A stretch of DNA of 64,000 nucleotides from Phycisphaerae bacterium (lineage in GTDB: Bacteria > Planctomycetota > Phycisphaerae > Phycisphaerales > UBA1924): contig JAEUIZ010000022.1 in NCBI GenBank assembly GCA_016793805.1, positions 62,001-126,000 of the forward strand. Direction: 5' to 3'. This document shows positions 6,712 to 51,314 of the stretch, one piece after another (the first letter of the stretch is position 1; each line of letters starts with the position of its first letter). The notes under the pieces are model-generated. The model searched no databases and was not told where the DNA came from. It saw nothing but the letters and a program-made list of their open reading frames with translations. The position numbers and the translations under genes are program-made.

Positions 6712-7641
6712 ATGAAGCGACCCTTGACGACCGCAATGGCCGTGCTCATGGGGATGGTCACCGGGGGACTGGCGGGGGAATCGGCGATGCAGGCAGGAAC
6801 CGGCCAGGCCGCGCGCCCCGCCGATCCGCCCACGACCGACCCCGCCGCCGCCTTCCAGGGCGAGCGTGGCGTCACGCGCCCGAGCCGCGACTCGACGCTG
6901 GGCTTCACCATCCCCTCCGAGATCGCACAGGTGCTGGTCAAGGGCGGCGCGATGGTCAAGAAGGGCGAGGTCCTGGTGCGGGCCCGCGACGAGGAACTCC
7001 GCCTGCAGCGCGACCTCCAGCGGATGCTCGCCGAGTCGGACCTTCCGGTGCAGCGCGCCGCCGCCGCGGTCGAGCAGGCCCAGGTCGAGTTCGACGCGCA
7101 GGAGGCGCTGGTCGAGAAGAACAAGGGCACCTCGCGGATCGAACTCGACCGATCCCGCGCCCAACTCAAGGCCCGGAAGGTGGATTGGGAGATCGCCAAG
7201 CACGAACTGGCCCAGCAGCAGGTGCAACTCGCCTTCCGCGAGGAACAACTCAAGCGCATGACGATCCTCGCTCCCTTTGACGGGCGCGTGGACCGCGTGA
7301 CGGCCGAGGTCGGGGAGGTGAAGCGCGACACCGATCCGGTGATCCGCGTCGTCTCGATCGACCCGCTCTGGATCGACGTGAAGGTCCCCACGACGCGCAC
7401 GCTCACGACCGGGCTGCGGGTGGGCGACCGCGCCTGGGTCCTCCTCGACACCCCCGGCGAGCCCGAGGTCTCGCAGGGCACCATCATCGAACTCGCCGCG
7501 GAGGCCGACTTCGGCAGCGGGACCCGTCGCGTTCGCGTCGAGGTCCCGAATCCGAAGCAATGGCCCGCCGGCCTGGCGGGTTGGGTCCGCTTCGCCGAGC
7601 CCCCCGCCGGATTCCGCGTCGCGCAGGGGGCCAAGCCTTGA
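6712..7641 (+). CDS. HlyD-family periplasmic adaptor-like protein
   Basis: A 309-residue membrane-fusion-type protein and first gene of a three-gene module. The order is: signal/anchor helix (residues 4-22), a lipoyl-like half (FTIPSEIAQVLVKGGAMVKKGEVL), an alpha-helical hairpin of about 100 residues rich in Gln/Glu/Arg, the second lipoyl half (MTILAPFDGRVDRVTAEVGE), then a beta-barrel segment (IRVVSIDPLWIDVKVP). Such adaptors bridge an inner-membrane transporter to an outer component. ATG 6712 is chosen because a signal helix follows directly. The stop overlaps the TTG start of the next gene (TTGA, 7638-7641), indicating translational coupling. No ABC or RND pump gene is adjacent. Confidence 0.85.
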   Translation: MKRPLTTAMAVLMGMVTGGLAGESAMQAGTGQAARPADPPTTDPAAAFQGERGVTRPSRDSTLGFTIPSEIAQVLVKGGAMVKKGEVLVRARDEELRLQRDLQRMLAESDLPVQRAAAAVEQAQVEFDAQEALVEKNKGTSRIELDRSRAQLKARKVDWEIAKHELAQQQVQLAFREEQLKRMTILAPFDGRVDRVTAEVGEVKRDTDPVIRVVSIDPLWIDVKVPTTRTLTTGLRVGDRAWVLLDTPGEPEVSQGTIIELAAEADFGSGTRRVRVEVPNPKQWPAGLAGWVRFAEPPAGFRVAQGAKP

Positions 7642-9581
7642 TCGACCTCTCCAGCGTCAAGACGCCCGGCTGGCAGCGCGTCGTCGCCGAACTCCACGCC
7701 CCCGCGCCCGACGACGGCGCCTTCCTCGGCAAACTCGCCAGTGTCCTCGCGCAGGTCTCCGGGGCGCGCCAGGCGATCGTCTTTGGCGTCGATCGCGCCG
7801 AGGGCGACCAGGCCGGACTCGCCGAGCCGCGGGCCCTGGGCGCCTGGCCCCCGCAGCAAGGACCGGTGCAGGCCAGCGCCGAGGCCAAGGCCGCCGCTCG
7901 CGGCGCCGCCGAAGCCGCCCAGGCCCGCCTCTTCGGGCAGGAGCGACCCGACTCGTTCTATGGAGAGGGCGAGCGCGGCACCTTCGCCGCCGTCCCCATC
8001 ACCATCGGCGAGCCGCCCGAGCCCCGCCACGTCATCACCCTCGACCTCGAACCCCGCTCCCGCCAAGCGCTCCAAACCACGATGGCGATGGTCGAGGTGA
8101 TCGCCGGGTACGCGCTGCTCCACTCGACCCGGCAGCAACTCGAGCGCACCAAGTCGGCCTCCGCCGCCCTCGACCTGGCGGGCCGGCTCATCGCCGCGAT
8201 CAACGCCGCACCCTCGTTCCGCGGCGCGGCCCTCCAACTCGTCAACGACCTGGCACGCCAGGCCAAGGCCGATCGCGCCGCGATGGGATGGGTTCGCGCC
8301 GTCGGGCCCTCGGGCGTCGTGCGCGTCGTCGCGCTGAGCGACACCGAGCACGTGGATCGCCGCATGGCCATGGTCCAGAAGATCGAGGCCGCGATGGACG
8401 AGTGCCTCGACCAGGAGCAGCCGGTTCTCTACCCGCCCCCCTCGGGCGCCGAGGCCGACGTGTTGCTCGCCCAGGCCATCACCCACGCCCATCGCGACCT
8501 CGCCTCCGCCGACGCGAGGCTCTCGGTCGTCTCGCTCCCGCTCCGCGACGGCGACGACGTTGTCGGCGTCGTCACAACCGAGTCCACCTCCGGTCCGTTC
8601 GACCTCGACGACCTCGAACTGATCCAGGCCGCGCTCGACCTCGTCGCCCCCGTGCTCGTGCTCCGCCGCTCCGACGATCGCCTCGTCGTCACCCGCGCCT
8701 GGTTCGCCTCGCTCAAGGGCGCCCGCTGGCTCGTGGGCCCCCGGCACACGGGCTGGAAACTCGCCGGCGTCGTCCTCGTCGTGGCCACGGCACTCGCCGC
8801 CCTCGTGCGCCTTCCGTTCCGCGTCGATGCGCCGATGGAGATCCAGCCCCGCAACCGCTGGATCCTCGCCGCACCGTTCGAAGGCGTCATCGGCGCGCTG
8901 GGCGAGGGCGTCGCCCCGGGCCGATCCGTCACCAAGGGCCAGGTGCTGTTCCGCATGGCGACCGAGGAGCAGGCGCTGCGTGCGGCGGACTTCCGCGCGC
9001 GCAAGATCCAGGCCCAGACCGAGGCCGATGCCGCCCTCAAAGCCGGGGACAAGGACGCCGAGGCTCAGCAGGCCCTCGCCCGCGTCGCGCAGGCCGAGGC
9101 CGGCCTCGCCCTCGCCCAGTACAACCTCCAGCGCGCCGAGGTCCGCGCCCCGGTTGATGGCGTCATCATCACCGGCGACCCCTCCGACAAGATCGGCGCC
9201 GCCGTCAAGATCGGCGACCCCATCTTCCAGGTCGCCTCGTTGGACGACATCGTGATCCTCGCGCGCGTGAGCGACCGCGACATCTCGCTCCTGCGCGGGA
9301 AGGAGATCCGGGGCCAGATCGCCACCAAGGGCGACCCGGGCCTGGCCCTCCCCTTCGTCGTCGAGCACGTCGTCCCGCTCGCGCAGGCCAAGGACGGGAA
9401 GAACACCTTTGAGGTGCGCGCGCGGCTGGACGCCTCGGACCCCGCCGTGCGCGCGCGGGCCGCCGAGGTCCTCCGCCCCGGGATGGAGGGCGTGGCCAAG
9501 TTCGACGTGGATCGCCGATCGCTCCTGCGCATCGCCACCCGCCGGTTCCGCGACCAACTCCGCCTCTGGTTGTGGTGGTGA
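7638..9581 (+). CDS. Double-GAF, single-TM, HlyD-like adaptor protein
   Basis: A 647-residue protein of unusual build. Residues ~25-165 and ~180-345 look like two GAF sensor domains (the second ends VSLPLRDGDDVVGVVTTES then a Phe-Asp-Leu-Asp-Asp helix). A membrane helix follows (VVLVVATALAALV, ~378-390), then a HlyD-like lipoyl/hairpin/lipoyl and barrel region to the end (LAAPFEGVIGALGEGVAPG near 410; VRAPVDGVIITGDPSDKIG near 500). The cytoplasmic GAF pair would sense a ligand and the outer half would be an adaptor. The TTG at 7638 overlaps the previous stop and has a GGGGG purine run 8 bases before it; no ATG lies nearby. It runs directly into the M50 gene. Confidence 0.85.
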   Translation: MIDLSSVKTPGWQRVVAELHAPAPDDGAFLGKLASVLAQVSGARQAIVFGVDRAEGDQAGLAEPRALGAWPPQQGPVQASAEAKAAARGAAEAAQARLFGQERPDSFYGEGERGTFAAVPITIGEPPEPRHVITLDLEPRSRQALQTTMAMVEVIAGYALLHSTRQQLERTKSASAALDLAGRLIAAINAAPSFRGAALQLVNDLARQAKADRAAMGWVRAVGPSGVVRVVALSDTEHVDRRMAMVQKIEAAMDECLDQEQPVLYPPPSGAEADVLLAQAITHAHRDLASADARLSVVSLPLRDGDDVVGVVTTESTSGPFDLDDLELIQAALDLVAPVLVLRRSDDRLVVTRAWFASLKGARWLVGPRHTGWKLAGVVLVVATALAALVRLPFRVDAPMEIQPRNRWILAAPFEGVIGALGEGVAPGRSVTKGQVLFRMATEEQALRAADFRARKIQAQTEADAALKAGDKDAEAQQALARVAQAEAGLALAQYNLQRAEVRAPVDGVIITGDPSDKIGAAVKIGDPIFQVASLDDIVILARVSDRDISLLRGKEIRGQIATKGDPGLALPFVVEHVVPLAQAKDGKNTFEVRARLDASDPAVRARAAEVLRPGMEGVAKFDVDRRSLLRIATRRFRDQLRLWLWW

Positions 9582-9583
9582 GC

Positions 9584-11785
9584 ATGAACGAGCGTCCCAC
9601 CTTCTCCCCGCTCTGGCACCGCGTCCGCGCCCTCAAGCCCCGCCTGAGGCCCCACGTCCAGATCACCCGCCAGCACTACCGCGGACGCCGCTGGCACGTC
9701 GTCCACGACCCGTCCTCCAACCAGTTCTACCGCCTCAGCCCCGTCGCCCACGAGTTCGTCGGGCTCCTCGACGGCAATCGCTCCGTCGAGGAGGTCTGGA
9801 ACATCTCGCTGGGCACCCACGGCGACCACGCCCCCACCCAGCACGAGGTCATCGAACTCCTCGGGCAACTCTACAACTCCAACCTCCTCGCCCTTGACGC
9901 CTCGCCCGAGACCGAGCAACTCCTCTCGCGCGGACGCGAACGCGTCAAGAGGCGCATCACCCAGCAGGCCATCGGCATCATGTACTTCAAGATCCGGCTC
10001 TTCAATCCGGATCGAATCCTCGCGTGGATCGAGCCCATCCTCCGGCCCCTCATCAACCGCTGGGGGCTGCTGCTCTGGGTGCTCTGGGTCGGCTATGGCA
10101 TCGCCAGCGTCGTCCCCCACTGGGACAGCCTCATGGCGTCCTACCGCGACGTGATGGCCCCCGCCAACTGGCTCGCCCTCGCCGTCTCCTTTGTCGTCGT
10201 GAAAGCGATCCACGAGTTGGGCCACGGCGTGATCTGCCGCCGCTTCGGGGGCCACGTCCCCGAGTTCGGGTTCATGCTCCTGGTGATGTTCCCCTCGCCC
10301 TACGTGGACGCCTCGGCAACGTGGGCCTTCCCCAGCAAGTACCGCCGCATGGCCGTCGGCGCGGGCGGGATGCTCTTCGAACTCGCCGTGGCCGCTGCCG
10401 CCGCCCTCGTCTGGATCGACTCGCTCTCGGGCGGGTCGGCGCTGGTCCGGCAACTCGCGTTCAACGCGATGTTCACCGCCAGCGTCTCGACCATCCTCTT
10501 CAACGCCAACCCGCTCATGCGCTTCGACGGCTATTACATCCTCTCCGACCTCATCGAGGTCCCCAACCTCATGCAGCGCTCGGGCAAGATGCTCCAGCAC
10601 CTCGTCCAGCGCTTCGTGCTCCGGCTCGAGTCCTCCCGCTCGCCCTCCAACTCGCCGGCCGAGCGCGCCATCCTCATCGTCTACGGCATCGCGTCCATGG
10701 CCTACCGCATCTTCCTCTTCTTCGCGATCACGCTCTACGTCATGGGTCAGTTCTTCGGGCTCGGGGTGTTCCTCGCCGCCTGGACCGCCGCCGCCTGGTT
10801 CATCCTGCCCGCGGGCAAACTGGTGCACTGGCTGGCGACGAGCCCGCAACTGGGCGAGAAGCGGAAGCGCTCGATCGCCCTGCTCGGGTCCTCCGTGCTC
10901 GCGTCCGCGCTGCTCCTGGGCGCCGTGCCCTTCCCGGATCACCGCCGCGCCTCGGGCGTGGTCGAGAGCCTGTCGCGCACGGGCGTGGCCTTCGGGACCG
11001 ACGGCTTCATCGTCGCGGCCCACGTGCGACCGGGCGACGCCGTCAGGGCCGGCGATCCGCTCGTCACCCTCGAGAGCGCCGACCTGACGGCCCGACTGCG
11101 CGAGGCCCAGGGCCAACTCGTCGAGTACGAGAGCCGCGAGCGCCAGTACTCCGCCCTCCCCGACACCGAGGGCATCGCGATCTCGCTCCGCCAGCACGTC
11201 GGGAGCCTGCGCGGGCTCATCGACGAGGTCAACCGCCGCATCGCCGAACTCGTCGTCCGCGCCCCGCACGACGGCGTGGTCGTCGTCGGCGTCGCCGGAT
11301 CCGATCCCCAGACTCTGGTGGGCATGTTCGTCCGCCGCGGGCAGTTGCTCTGCGAGGTCGTGGACACCACGCGGGTCCGCGTCGCCGCACCGCTCGACTC
11401 GGCCAAGGCCCAGGCCCTTCTGCTCGCCGGTCCGGGCCGCACGGGCGTCCGCCTCCGTCCGCTCTCCGAGCCCGACACCCTCCTGACCGCTGCCGCCTTC
11501 CGCCTTCGTCCCGCGGGCGACCGCCTCCTCCCCCACCCCTCCCTCGGCTTTGCCGGTGGGGGTGCCATCGAAACCGAACCCGCCGACCGCCTCGGCCTGG
11601 CCTCCAAGACCCCCCGTTTCACGCTCGAGGCCGAGGACGTGCATCCCGTCGATGCCCCGAAGTCCCCCTGGGCCGCACTCCCCGGCGAGCGCGTCGCCCT
11701 CCGCTTCACCCTCCCGGCCCGACCGCTCCTCGACCAGTGGATCCAGCGCCTCCGCCAGATCATCCAGGAACGCGTCCACCTATAA
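9584..11785 (+). CDS. PqqD-like / M50 zinc metalloprotease / HlyD-like fusion membrane protein
   Basis: A 733-residue polytopic protein. Residues 20-105 resemble a PqqD-type peptide-recognition winged helix (VHDPSSNQFYRLSPVAHEFV). The M50 (site-2-type) protease core has the zinc motif HELGH at 210-214 and the second ligand region NANPLMRFDGYY at 307-318, both within predicted membrane helices. After more helices comes a lipoyl/hairpin adaptor half (GFIVAAHVRPGDAVRAGDPL near 480, VVRAPHDGVVVVG near 565). The layout recalls YydH-like peptide zinc metalloproteases annotated near RiPP-type peptides. The start is ATG 9584, two bases after the upstream stop; GTG 9572 or 9575 is possible. This is the probable catalytic and transport heart of the module. 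Confidence 0.85.
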   Translation: MNERPTFSPLWHRVRALKPRLRPHVQITRQHYRGRRWHVVHDPSSNQFYRLSPVAHEFVGLLDGNRSVEEVWNISLGTHGDHAPTQHEVIELLGQLYNSNLLALDASPETEQLLSRGRERVKRRITQQAIGIMYFKIRLFNPDRILAWIEPILRPLINRWGLLLWVLWVGYGIASVVPHWDSLMASYRDVMAPANWLALAVSFVVVKAIHELGHGVICRRFGGHVPEFGFMLLVMFPSPYVDASATWAFPSKYRRMAVGAGGMLFELAVAAAAALVWIDSLSGGSALVRQLAFNAMFTASVSTILFNANPLMRFDGYYILSDLIEVPNLMQRSGKMLQHLVQRFVLRLESSRSPSNSPAERAILIVYGIASMAYRIFLFFAITLYVMGQFFGLGVFLAAWTAAAWFILPAGKLVHWLATSPQLGEKRKRSIALLGSSVLASALLLGAVPFPDHRRASGVVESLSRTGVAFGTDGFIVAAHVRPGDAVRAGDPLVTLESADLTARLREAQGQLVEYESRERQYSALPDTEGIAISLRQHVGSLRGLIDEVNRRIAELVVRAPHDGVVVVGVAGSDPQTLVGMFVRRGQLLCEVVDTTRVRVAAPLDSAKAQALLLAGPGRTGVRLRPLSEPDTLLTAAAFRLRPAGDRLLPHPSLGFAGGGAIETEPADRLGLASKTPRFTLEAEDVHPVDAPKSPWAALPGERVALRFTLPARPLLDQWIQRLRQIIQERVHL

Positions 11786-11886: not shown

Positions 11887-13152
11887 ATGAACCGAACCGC
11901 TCTGCTCGCGTCCCTCGCCCTTGCCGCCGGCAACGCCCTTGCCGGGCCCTCCTTCTACAACCTCGGCGTCATGCCCATGGGCGGGACTTTCACCCGCGCC
12001 GGGCAGGTCAGCGCCGACGGCTGGGTCGTCAGCGGATTGGGCGACATCAACGGCGACGAGCAGTGGGGCAACCGCGCCTTCCGTTGGACCCTCCAAGGCG
12101 GCTTCCAGAACCTCGGCGTGCCCATCGGCTCGTCCTGGTCCGCCGGCAACTCCATCTCCGCCGACGGCTCCACCGTCGCCGGCAACCTCGGCGTCCGCCC
12201 CTTCCGCTGGTCCAGCCAGACCGGGCCCCAGAACCTCGGCACCCTTCCCAGCGGCACCGTTTCTATCGCCTATGGCGTCAGCGGCGACGGCTCCATCGTC
12301 GTCGGCGACAGCAACGACGGCTTCACCTACCTCGCCTTCCGATGGACCGCCCAGGGCGGCATGCAGAGCATCGGCACCCTCCCCGGCGGCTACACGAGCG
12401 GCGGCTCCGGCGCCCACGGCATCAGCGCCGACGGAACCACCATCGTCGGCGTCAGCGCCTGGACCGGCGCCAACGGCCGCGCCTTCCGTTGGACCCAGGC
12501 CGGAGGAATGCAGAACCTCGGCGTCCTCCTCGGCGGGGACCACTCCTACGCCTATTCCTGCAGCGCCAACGGCTCGGCCGTCACGGGCTTCAGCCGATGG
12601 GTCGGCGACGAGTCCATGGGCGACCGCGCCTTCCGTTGGACCCAGGCCGGAGGCATGCAGAACCTCGGCGTCATTCCGGGCATGCTCCACTCCTACGGCA
12701 ACGTCATCAGCGGTGACGGGCTCGTCGTCGCGGGTCGTTGCAAGTTCAACGCCAGTAACACTCCCGGCCGCGCCTTCATCTGGCGCGCCCAGACCGGCAT
12801 GGTCGACCTCAACACCTGGCTCCCCACCCAGGGCGTCGACCTCGCCGGATGGGTCCTCACCGACGCTACAGGGCTTTCCTACGACGGCTCCGCCCTCTGC
12901 GGGACGGGCTTCTACAACGGGCAGGAGCGCGCCTTCCTCATCCGCGGGCTCTTCGGCGTCGCCACCTGCTACGCCAACTGCGACGGCTCCACCGTCGCCC
13001 CGGCCCTCAACGTCAACGACTTCCAGTGCTTCCTCAACAAGTTCGCCGCCGGCGACCCCTTCGCCAACTGCGACGGCTCCACCGTCCCGCCCGTCCTGAA
13101 CGTCAACGACTTCCAGTGCTTCCTCAACAAGTTCGCCGCGGGTTGCCCGTAA
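11887..13152 (+). CDS. HAF-repeat secreted protein with GC-type dockerin C-terminus
   Basis: A 421-residue exported protein. GGAGG lies seven bases before ATG 11887 and a signal peptide follows (MNRTALLASLALAAGNALA, then GPS). Residues ~25-340 are at least six ~45-residue repeats of the extracellular HAF type: a GISADGTTIVG-like strand, AFRWT, then GGMQNLGVLPGG-like turns. The end carries two dockerin-like repeats (CYANCDGST/LNVNDFQCFLNKF twice) and AAGCP. It begins 101 bases after the M50 module on the same strand and might be read through from it, so it could be a substrate of that module, though its own ribosome site suggests independence. HAF repeats have no known catalytic role. Confidence 0.88.
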   Translation: MNRTALLASLALAAGNALAGPSFYNLGVMPMGGTFTRAGQVSADGWVVSGLGDINGDEQWGNRAFRWTLQGGFQNLGVPIGSSWSAGNSISADGSTVAGNLGVRPFRWSSQTGPQNLGTLPSGTVSIAYGVSGDGSIVVGDSNDGFTYLAFRWTAQGGMQSIGTLPGGYTSGGSGAHGISADGTTIVGVSAWTGANGRAFRWTQAGGMQNLGVLLGGDHSYAYSCSANGSAVTGFSRWVGDESMGDRAFRWTQAGGMQNLGVIPGMLHSYGNVISGDGLVVAGRCKFNASNTPGRAFIWRAQTGMVDLNTWLPTQGVDLAGWVLTDATGLSYDGSALCGTGFYNGQERAFLIRGLFGVATCYANCDGSTVAPALNVNDFQCFLNKFAAGDPFANCDGSTVPPVLNVNDFQCFLNKFAAGCP

Positions 13153-50837: not shown

Positions 50838-51314
50838 ATGCCTGGTGGGAGGCAGAGCGGTCCCGTGTTGCGTCTGGTCAGCGCCGATGATGCCGGCGAG
50901 GGCGGGACGTTGCCGCGCGACCACGGCGGCCCCATCGCCCGCGTCCGCCAGGCCAACCTCGACGCCGCCTCCTTGCCCGCGCTCGACGCCCGCTGGGTGC
51001 TCGCTTCTCGGGCGTCGCGCCTCATCGAGGGCGGCCGGGCCGCGGTCCTCTCGCCCGAACGCCGCGAGCGTCTCCGCCGACTCGCCACCGACCTCGGGCT
51101 CCGCCCCTTCGACGCCGGGCTCATCATCGCCATCGTCCAGGACGCCGCCCGCGCCGGCGAGGACCCGCTCGGGCGCGACGCCGAATCACGCCTGCGACTC
51201 GTCCGCCCCGCCGAGGTCAACGCCGACTCGCCCCAACGCCTCGCGCGCCTGCTCCTGCTCTCCGCGCTCCTCGGCGCCGCCGCCTTCCTCGCACTCGTCC
51301 TCTGGCTCCGCTAG
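50838..51314 (+). CDS. Small tail-anchored membrane protein
   Basis: A 158-residue protein with a soluble helical part (LSPERRERLRRLATDLGLRP, then DAGLIIAIVQDAARAGEDP) and one C-terminal membrane helix (LLLLSALLGAAAFLALVLWL). I do not recognise the family. ATG 50838 lies at the end of a small inverted repeat, CATACG-N6-CGTATG (50823-50840), which might be an operator or chance. Its stop shares the palindrome CTAG with the stop of the convergent hydrolase gene. Confidence 0.65.
   Translation: MPGGRQSGPVLRLVSADDAGEGGTLPRDHGGPIARVRQANLDAASLPALDARWVLASRASRLIEGGRAAVLSPERRERLRRLATDLGLRPFDAGLIIAIVQDAARAGEDPLGRDAESRLRLVRPAEVNADSPQRLARLLLLSALLGAAAFLALVLWLR

Follow-up and report, generated by a model that had tools for sequence, protein, structure and literature searches.

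Three consecutive genes on the forward strand of the 64-kb stretch of Phycisphaerae DNA analysed here (hereafter the window) probably code for the envelope components of a type-I-like exporter that is driven by SecA and would handle proteins with an LEPR-XLL leader. LEPR-XLL is an N-terminal motif (NCBIfam NF012209, cut-off 17 bits), and the proteins that carry it are often 4,000-15,000 aa long, surface-type, giant repeat proteins. They are the likely cargo, since they travel with the module and often adjoin it across hundreds of genomes, and the link is statistically strong.

The gene cluster itself is not new, because a locus around "secondary SecA_DEAD" proteins, consisting of a SecA_DEAD paralogue, M50-HlyD, GAF-HlyD and HlyD, was already reported (Kamneva, Poudel & Ward 2015; PMC4452313); the initial annotation was therefore mistaken in calling the system undescribed. 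The M50-HlyD, GAF-HlyD/biotin_lipoyl and separate HlyD genes, as well as the phyla, are all shared between that locus and the window, and a secondary SecA_DEAD is also present in the window genome, yet unlinked to the module; such proteins are sometimes not co-encoded with their partners (PMC4452313). The authors proposed secretion with SecA as the ATPase, regarded the broader role of the locus as "completely unknown" and named no cargo, and neither PqqD nor DUF3467 occurs in their text. Methylobacterium extorquens AM1 is reported there to carry the operon. No paper on the cargo of an M50+PqqD+HlyD(+GAF)/SecA-like locus was found in the literature searched, namely open-licence PMC papers, nor was an assigned export route for LEPR-XLL proteins or a statement of their link with the module. 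It is the LEPR-XLL cargo link that appears to be the new result.

Three adaptor proteins with PqqD, M50 and GAF parts

All three genes are intact. The first one (6712..7641) starts with ATG, and its TTGA end overlaps the TTG start of the second (7638..9581, stop codon at 9579-9581), while the third (9584..11785) starts with ATG two bases past that stop. Re-reading of the window bore out this layout as initially annotated, and the HlyD adaptor half assigned to each product was confirmed as well, with HlyD_3 above the Pfam cut-off in all of them (5.7e-12, 8.3e-13 and 1e-7 for genes 1, 2 and 3, respectively). The product of gene 1 is a HlyD-type periplasmic adaptor of 309 aa, which also matches RND_mfp above cut-off (6.9e-33) and has a single, N-terminal hydrophobic stretch with no further transmembrane (TM) segment.

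Gene 2 encodes a protein of 647 aa, for which the AlphaFold model (mean pLDDT 87.9) predicts a tandem GAF, one TM helix (374-392 in the numbering of the hydropathy profile) and an adaptor. Of the two GAF domains that had been proposed (7653..8681; model residues about 6-157 and 194-348), one passes Pfam (5.5e-8), and the first is visible only in the predicted structure; the GAF profile is matched by 27 of the 28 homologues at E<=0.01. Residues 6-357 of the model resemble the tandem GAF A-B of PDE5A (Z 16.9 over 305 residues, with an rmsd of 13.0 over the pair), and a single GAF resembles 3ci6 (Z 16.3, rmsd 3.1). The HlyD half (8808..9521; model residues 391-628), recognised by profile and structure matches, is similar to MacA/EmrA-type adaptors in the fold search.

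The product of gene 3, as described by profiles, homologue alignments and structure, is a PqqD-M50-HlyD protein of 733 aa. The PqqD and M50 assignments are supported by the family, with PqqD matched by 26/31 and M50 by 29/31 homologues at E<=0.01, although the window protein itself falls just under the Pfam cut-offs for both (PF05402: 1.4e-4, 22.6 bits vs. 23.4; Peptidase_M50: 6.6e-5, 22.8 bits vs. 27.2). In the predicted structure (mean pLDDT 86.8), an N-terminal domain with three strands and three helices is followed by a bundle of membrane helices and then by an adaptor. The strand-helix order of the N-terminal domain (aa 20-102, 9641..9889) fits a PqqD-like fold, and the domain is putatively peptide-binding. 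Both the HExxH and the Asp zinc ligands of the predicted M50 protease are present: the HELGH site lies at 10211..10225 (H210, E211 and H214 invariant), and NANPLMRFDGYY, the second M50 motif with the metal-ligand Asp, at 10502..10537 (N307, N309 and D315 invariant). Alignments of 14 and 31 sequences show no variation in HExxH, in the NxNPL stretch or in the Asp that serves as third ligand. The HlyD half (aa 449-714, 10928..11725) is supported by profile, structure and sequence matches. In PDB sequence and fold searches with the module proteins, it was mostly the adaptor and GAF parts that were matched; the M50/PqqD parts gave one marginal match to 3b4r and an 86-residue match to GdmN. According to hydropathy, the PqqD and GAF domains lie ahead of all TM segments and the HlyD halves come after them, an order that would suit a reading head in the cytosol and a conduit in the periplasm.

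Conservation of the module and its SecA-like ATPase

Orthologues of the M50 gene were found in 48 of the 61 relatives (window genome included); five further relatives, which match the M50 protein through the adaptor part alone, are outside the 48. Among the loci of 39 relatives, 38 have a clustered GAF-HlyD gene; a separate HlyD gene is present in 28 and a DUF3467-type gene in 15, and a SecA-like ATPase is encoded immediately downstream in 33. Across phyla, among them Planctomycetota, Verrucomicrobiota, Pseudomonadota, Nitrospirota, Desulfobacterota and Fibrobacterota, the neighbours at 80 loci are GAF-HlyD (adjacent, 74), SecA-like ATPase (72), HlyD (61) and DUF3467 (17). The expected joint conservation of the genes was thus confirmed, with GAF-HlyD next to M50 in 74/80, and the initial idea of an export machine with PqqD, M50, GAF and HlyD parts is supported, the module being conserved as a unit across phyla. 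A TolC-like gene cluster is present at 13/80 loci, two members of which were confirmed as OEP family, and OEP proteins are also encoded in the window genome. SapC genes occur at 10/80 loci, in Pseudomonadota and relatives, for example at L214:12203-13066 (PF07277, 1.3e-74). An ABC ATPase-like cluster is found at only 8/80 loci, at scattered positions, and neighbourhood clustering of the 39 relatives' and 80 cross-phylum loci revealed no conserved module-linked ABC family.

Is the machine then without a motor, as was first suggested? There is indeed no SecA-type gene in the 64-kb window, and both SecA-like genes of the genome are located on other contigs. However, in most relatives the module is directly followed by a gene for a dedicated SecA-like ATPase, and a paralogue is encoded elsewhere in the window genome (G000:C26:12432-14399, SecA_DEAD 3.8e-79); the motorless reading was rejected on these grounds. 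This paralogue is distinct from the canonical SecA on contig C42, is 69% identical to that of one relative, and has SecA_DEAD, P-loop and preprotein-binding (SecA_PP_bind) domains. It is present in 48/48 M50-positive and 0/13 M50-negative relatives.

The place of the relatives' SecA-like gene is taken in the window by a gene at 11887..13152 on the forward strand, whose product is a HAF-repeat, GC-dockerin protein (NCBIfam HAF_rpt 3.1e-21, dockerin_GC 1.9e-8). We judged it incidental and outside the machine, since it is not conserved at that place in relatives; it was also considered and rejected as cargo, as it has a hydrophobic signal-like start and its place is unconserved. Genes of the same kind, sharing sequence with the dockerin-type proteins of the window, are found downstream of the window genome's SecA paralogue (L108:10927-19901). 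In addition, a second module subtype with DUF3467 and no adjacent SecA occurs at three loci (L067, L069 and L070), two of which have a membrane-like protein of ~420 aa after M50. The genomes of this subtype encode an unlinked SecA paralogue of ~627 aa in a conserved neighbourhood (L122, L123 and L124), beside an ArgJ-like gene of ~395 aa and an aminotransferase-like gene.

LEPR-XLL proteins as candidate cargo

Large LEPR-XLL proteins were first met adjoining several modules, and the link was then tested. Among the 61 relatives, NF012209 is above cut-off in 40. LEPR-XLL proteins are encoded in 43/48 module-positive vs. 1/13 module-negative relatives (p=4e-8), the lone match among the latter being weak, internal and sub-cut-off, and within a single family in 26/30 vs. 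0/7 (p=3e-5). The weak matches in module-negative relatives, where read, appeared to be internal or in short frames. Four module-positive relatives other than the window genome have no LEPR protein at E<=0.1. Among 148 Planctomycetota, the M50 protein is encoded in 18/19 LEPR genomes (p=1.5e-10), and about 25 genomes have the M50 family without an LEPR match.

The largest sample comprises 397 Pseudomonadota genomes drawn irrespective of LEPR, of which 59 have both, 26 M50 only, seven LEPR only and 305 neither (Fisher p=1.4e-41); that is, the module is present in 59/66 LEPR-positive vs. 26/331 LEPR-negative genomes. It should be noted that the loose M50 profile picks up paralogues too, which bears on the M50-positive, LEPR-negative genomes; where the best M50 match is below 1e-180, LEPR is present in 35/35. 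Several of the seven LEPR-only matches are short frames of 48-549 aa, which may be due to chance. Since the species are related, the Fisher values treat them as more independent than they are. Physical linkage is free of this problem: 36 of the 72 listed Pseudomonadota LEPR ORFs are located less than 6 kb from a module M50 gene, with about 1% expected for each. In a further set of 21 genomes from the locus scan, selected partly for a giant ORF flanking the module and therefore supporting evidence only, LEPR is over cut-off in 20, and at 15/15 loci measured the giant ORF lies directly against the module, with the same orientation.

The leader motif can be written as [FL]E-x-LEPRxLLS(A/G)D within a basic leader. 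By a crude measure, the best 12-residue hydropathy, the median is 1.18 for 56 LEPR N-termini vs. 1.80 for only 10 controls (p=0.003); the leaders look unlike Sec signals and do not look like a classical TM segment. At the other end, a pattern picked after inspecting the giants, [ILVM]-[DNATS]-W-[SGRA] within the last 80 residues, is found in 7/18 listed giants vs. 27/1120 background ORFs. The seven are upstream of the module at L170, L193, L202, L207, L214, L217 and L220, and the pattern could be a retention or anchoring signal. The C-termini of the giants at L193, L202, L214 and L217 also contain an HExGHxxxxxH metalloprotease-like stretch.

In the window genome, NF012209 has no match at cut-off. 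Two proteins with a readable N-terminal motif (LEPLEPRTLMSGA and IESLESRVLFAGD) score 14.6 and 12.1 bits against the cut-off of 17, and are therefore termed LEPR-type here, not members. One (L256:1821-4532, minus strand) is a 903-codon ORF, 898 aa long if read from a later Met, which has a subtilase domain as well as HYDIN-like Ig and Golvesin domains; the other (L257:2946-9149, minus strand) has 2067 aa and weak PPC similarity. Both are extracellular-looking, and no classical Sec signal is seen at the start of either. Four separate contigs carry the module, the SecA paralogue and these two proteins. A pattern search of the 64-kb window gave no convincing LEPR-like ORF; the single match, near 50982, was rejected, as it sits well inside a frame of 197 residues, at residue 87.

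Proposed mechanism and comparison with known systems

In the exporter that we favour, the PqqD domain of the M50 protein would bind the basic LEPR leader in the cytosol, the SecA-like ATPase, encoded here on another contig, would push the unfolded chain, and the M50 site would trim the leader at the membrane. The HlyD halves of the three proteins could form a conduit that spans the periplasm and leads to an outer-membrane channel of the TolC type, and the cytosolic GAF pair may gate the machine or couple it to a signal. We infer leader recognition, trimming, SecA translocation and GAF gating from the domain families. The chances are about even for the full picture, that is, a phylum-crossing Gram-negative system in which the LEPR leader is read by PqqD and removed by M50, and a second SecA exports proteins of up to ~15,000 residues.

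The usual cutting site of M50 enzymes is inside a TM helix, whereas the LEPR leader is no classical TM segment. It is thus conceivable, though rather unlikely, that LEPR-XLL proteins are the true cargo but the PqqD and M50 parts act elsewhere, for example in activation of the machine, the leader being cut otherwise or kept. Against this stand the M50 catalytic residues, invariant in all aligned homologues, the fusion of M50 to a leader-binding-type domain, and the LEPR motif as the one feature common to the cargo candidates.

PqqD domains bind RiPP leaders, and in NCBIfam the M50 part is matched best by the daptide (NF041824, covering aa 19-404, 2e-51) and YydH/LiaK (NF058609, 9e-11) metalloproteases, as if PqqD bound a short precursor, M50 cut it and HlyD exported it in a RiPP-like maturation pathway. 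We rejected this as very improbable: both scores are far below cut-off (175.3 vs. 300 bits and 41.9 vs. the equivalog cut-off of 225 bits, respectively), no short precursor or RiPP-modification gene came out as conserved when the neighbourhoods were clustered, the sole recurrent small gene being DUF3467 of about 117 aa, and the module is tracked by large LEPR-XLL proteins. The peptide cargo of the initial annotation gives way to large, often giant LEPR-XLL proteins as the associated candidates. GAF-controlled efflux of small molecules or ions, with M50 in regulated proteolysis and an indirect LEPR link, is hardly to be expected either, since, despite the resemblance of the HlyD parts to the MacA, MexA and EmrA drug-efflux adaptors, the loci have no conserved pump gene of the RND, MFS or ABC type, the ATPase that they do conserve is homologous to the SecA preprotein translocase and includes SecA_PP_bind, and the LEPR linkage is physical.

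With LEPR-XLL proteins as the cargo of the SecA-driven exporter, two orphan families, the 2015 locus and proteins that are among the longest made by bacteria, would be joined into one testable system, whose cargo could be predicted from sequence by the LEPR signal. This suggests that a second SecA may serve giant surface proteins outside Gram-positives too.

Among known systems, type I secretion (HlyB-HlyD-TolC) has HlyD adaptors in common with the module, some loci of which also include a TolC-type OEP gene. However, type I has an ABC motor and a C-terminal signal, whereas the module loci have a SecA-like ATPase and no conserved ABC transporter, the candidate cargo signal is N-terminal, and M50 and GAF parts are fused to the adaptors. 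The M50 fold is shared with the YydH/LiaK epipeptide and daptide systems, from which the module differs in having no peptide precursor and in its association with large proteins. The accessory SecA2 of Gram-positive bacteria is a second SecA for selected, often large surface proteins; likened to it by description, the module shares the second SecA, but its partners are HlyD and M50 proteins, not SecY2/Asp.
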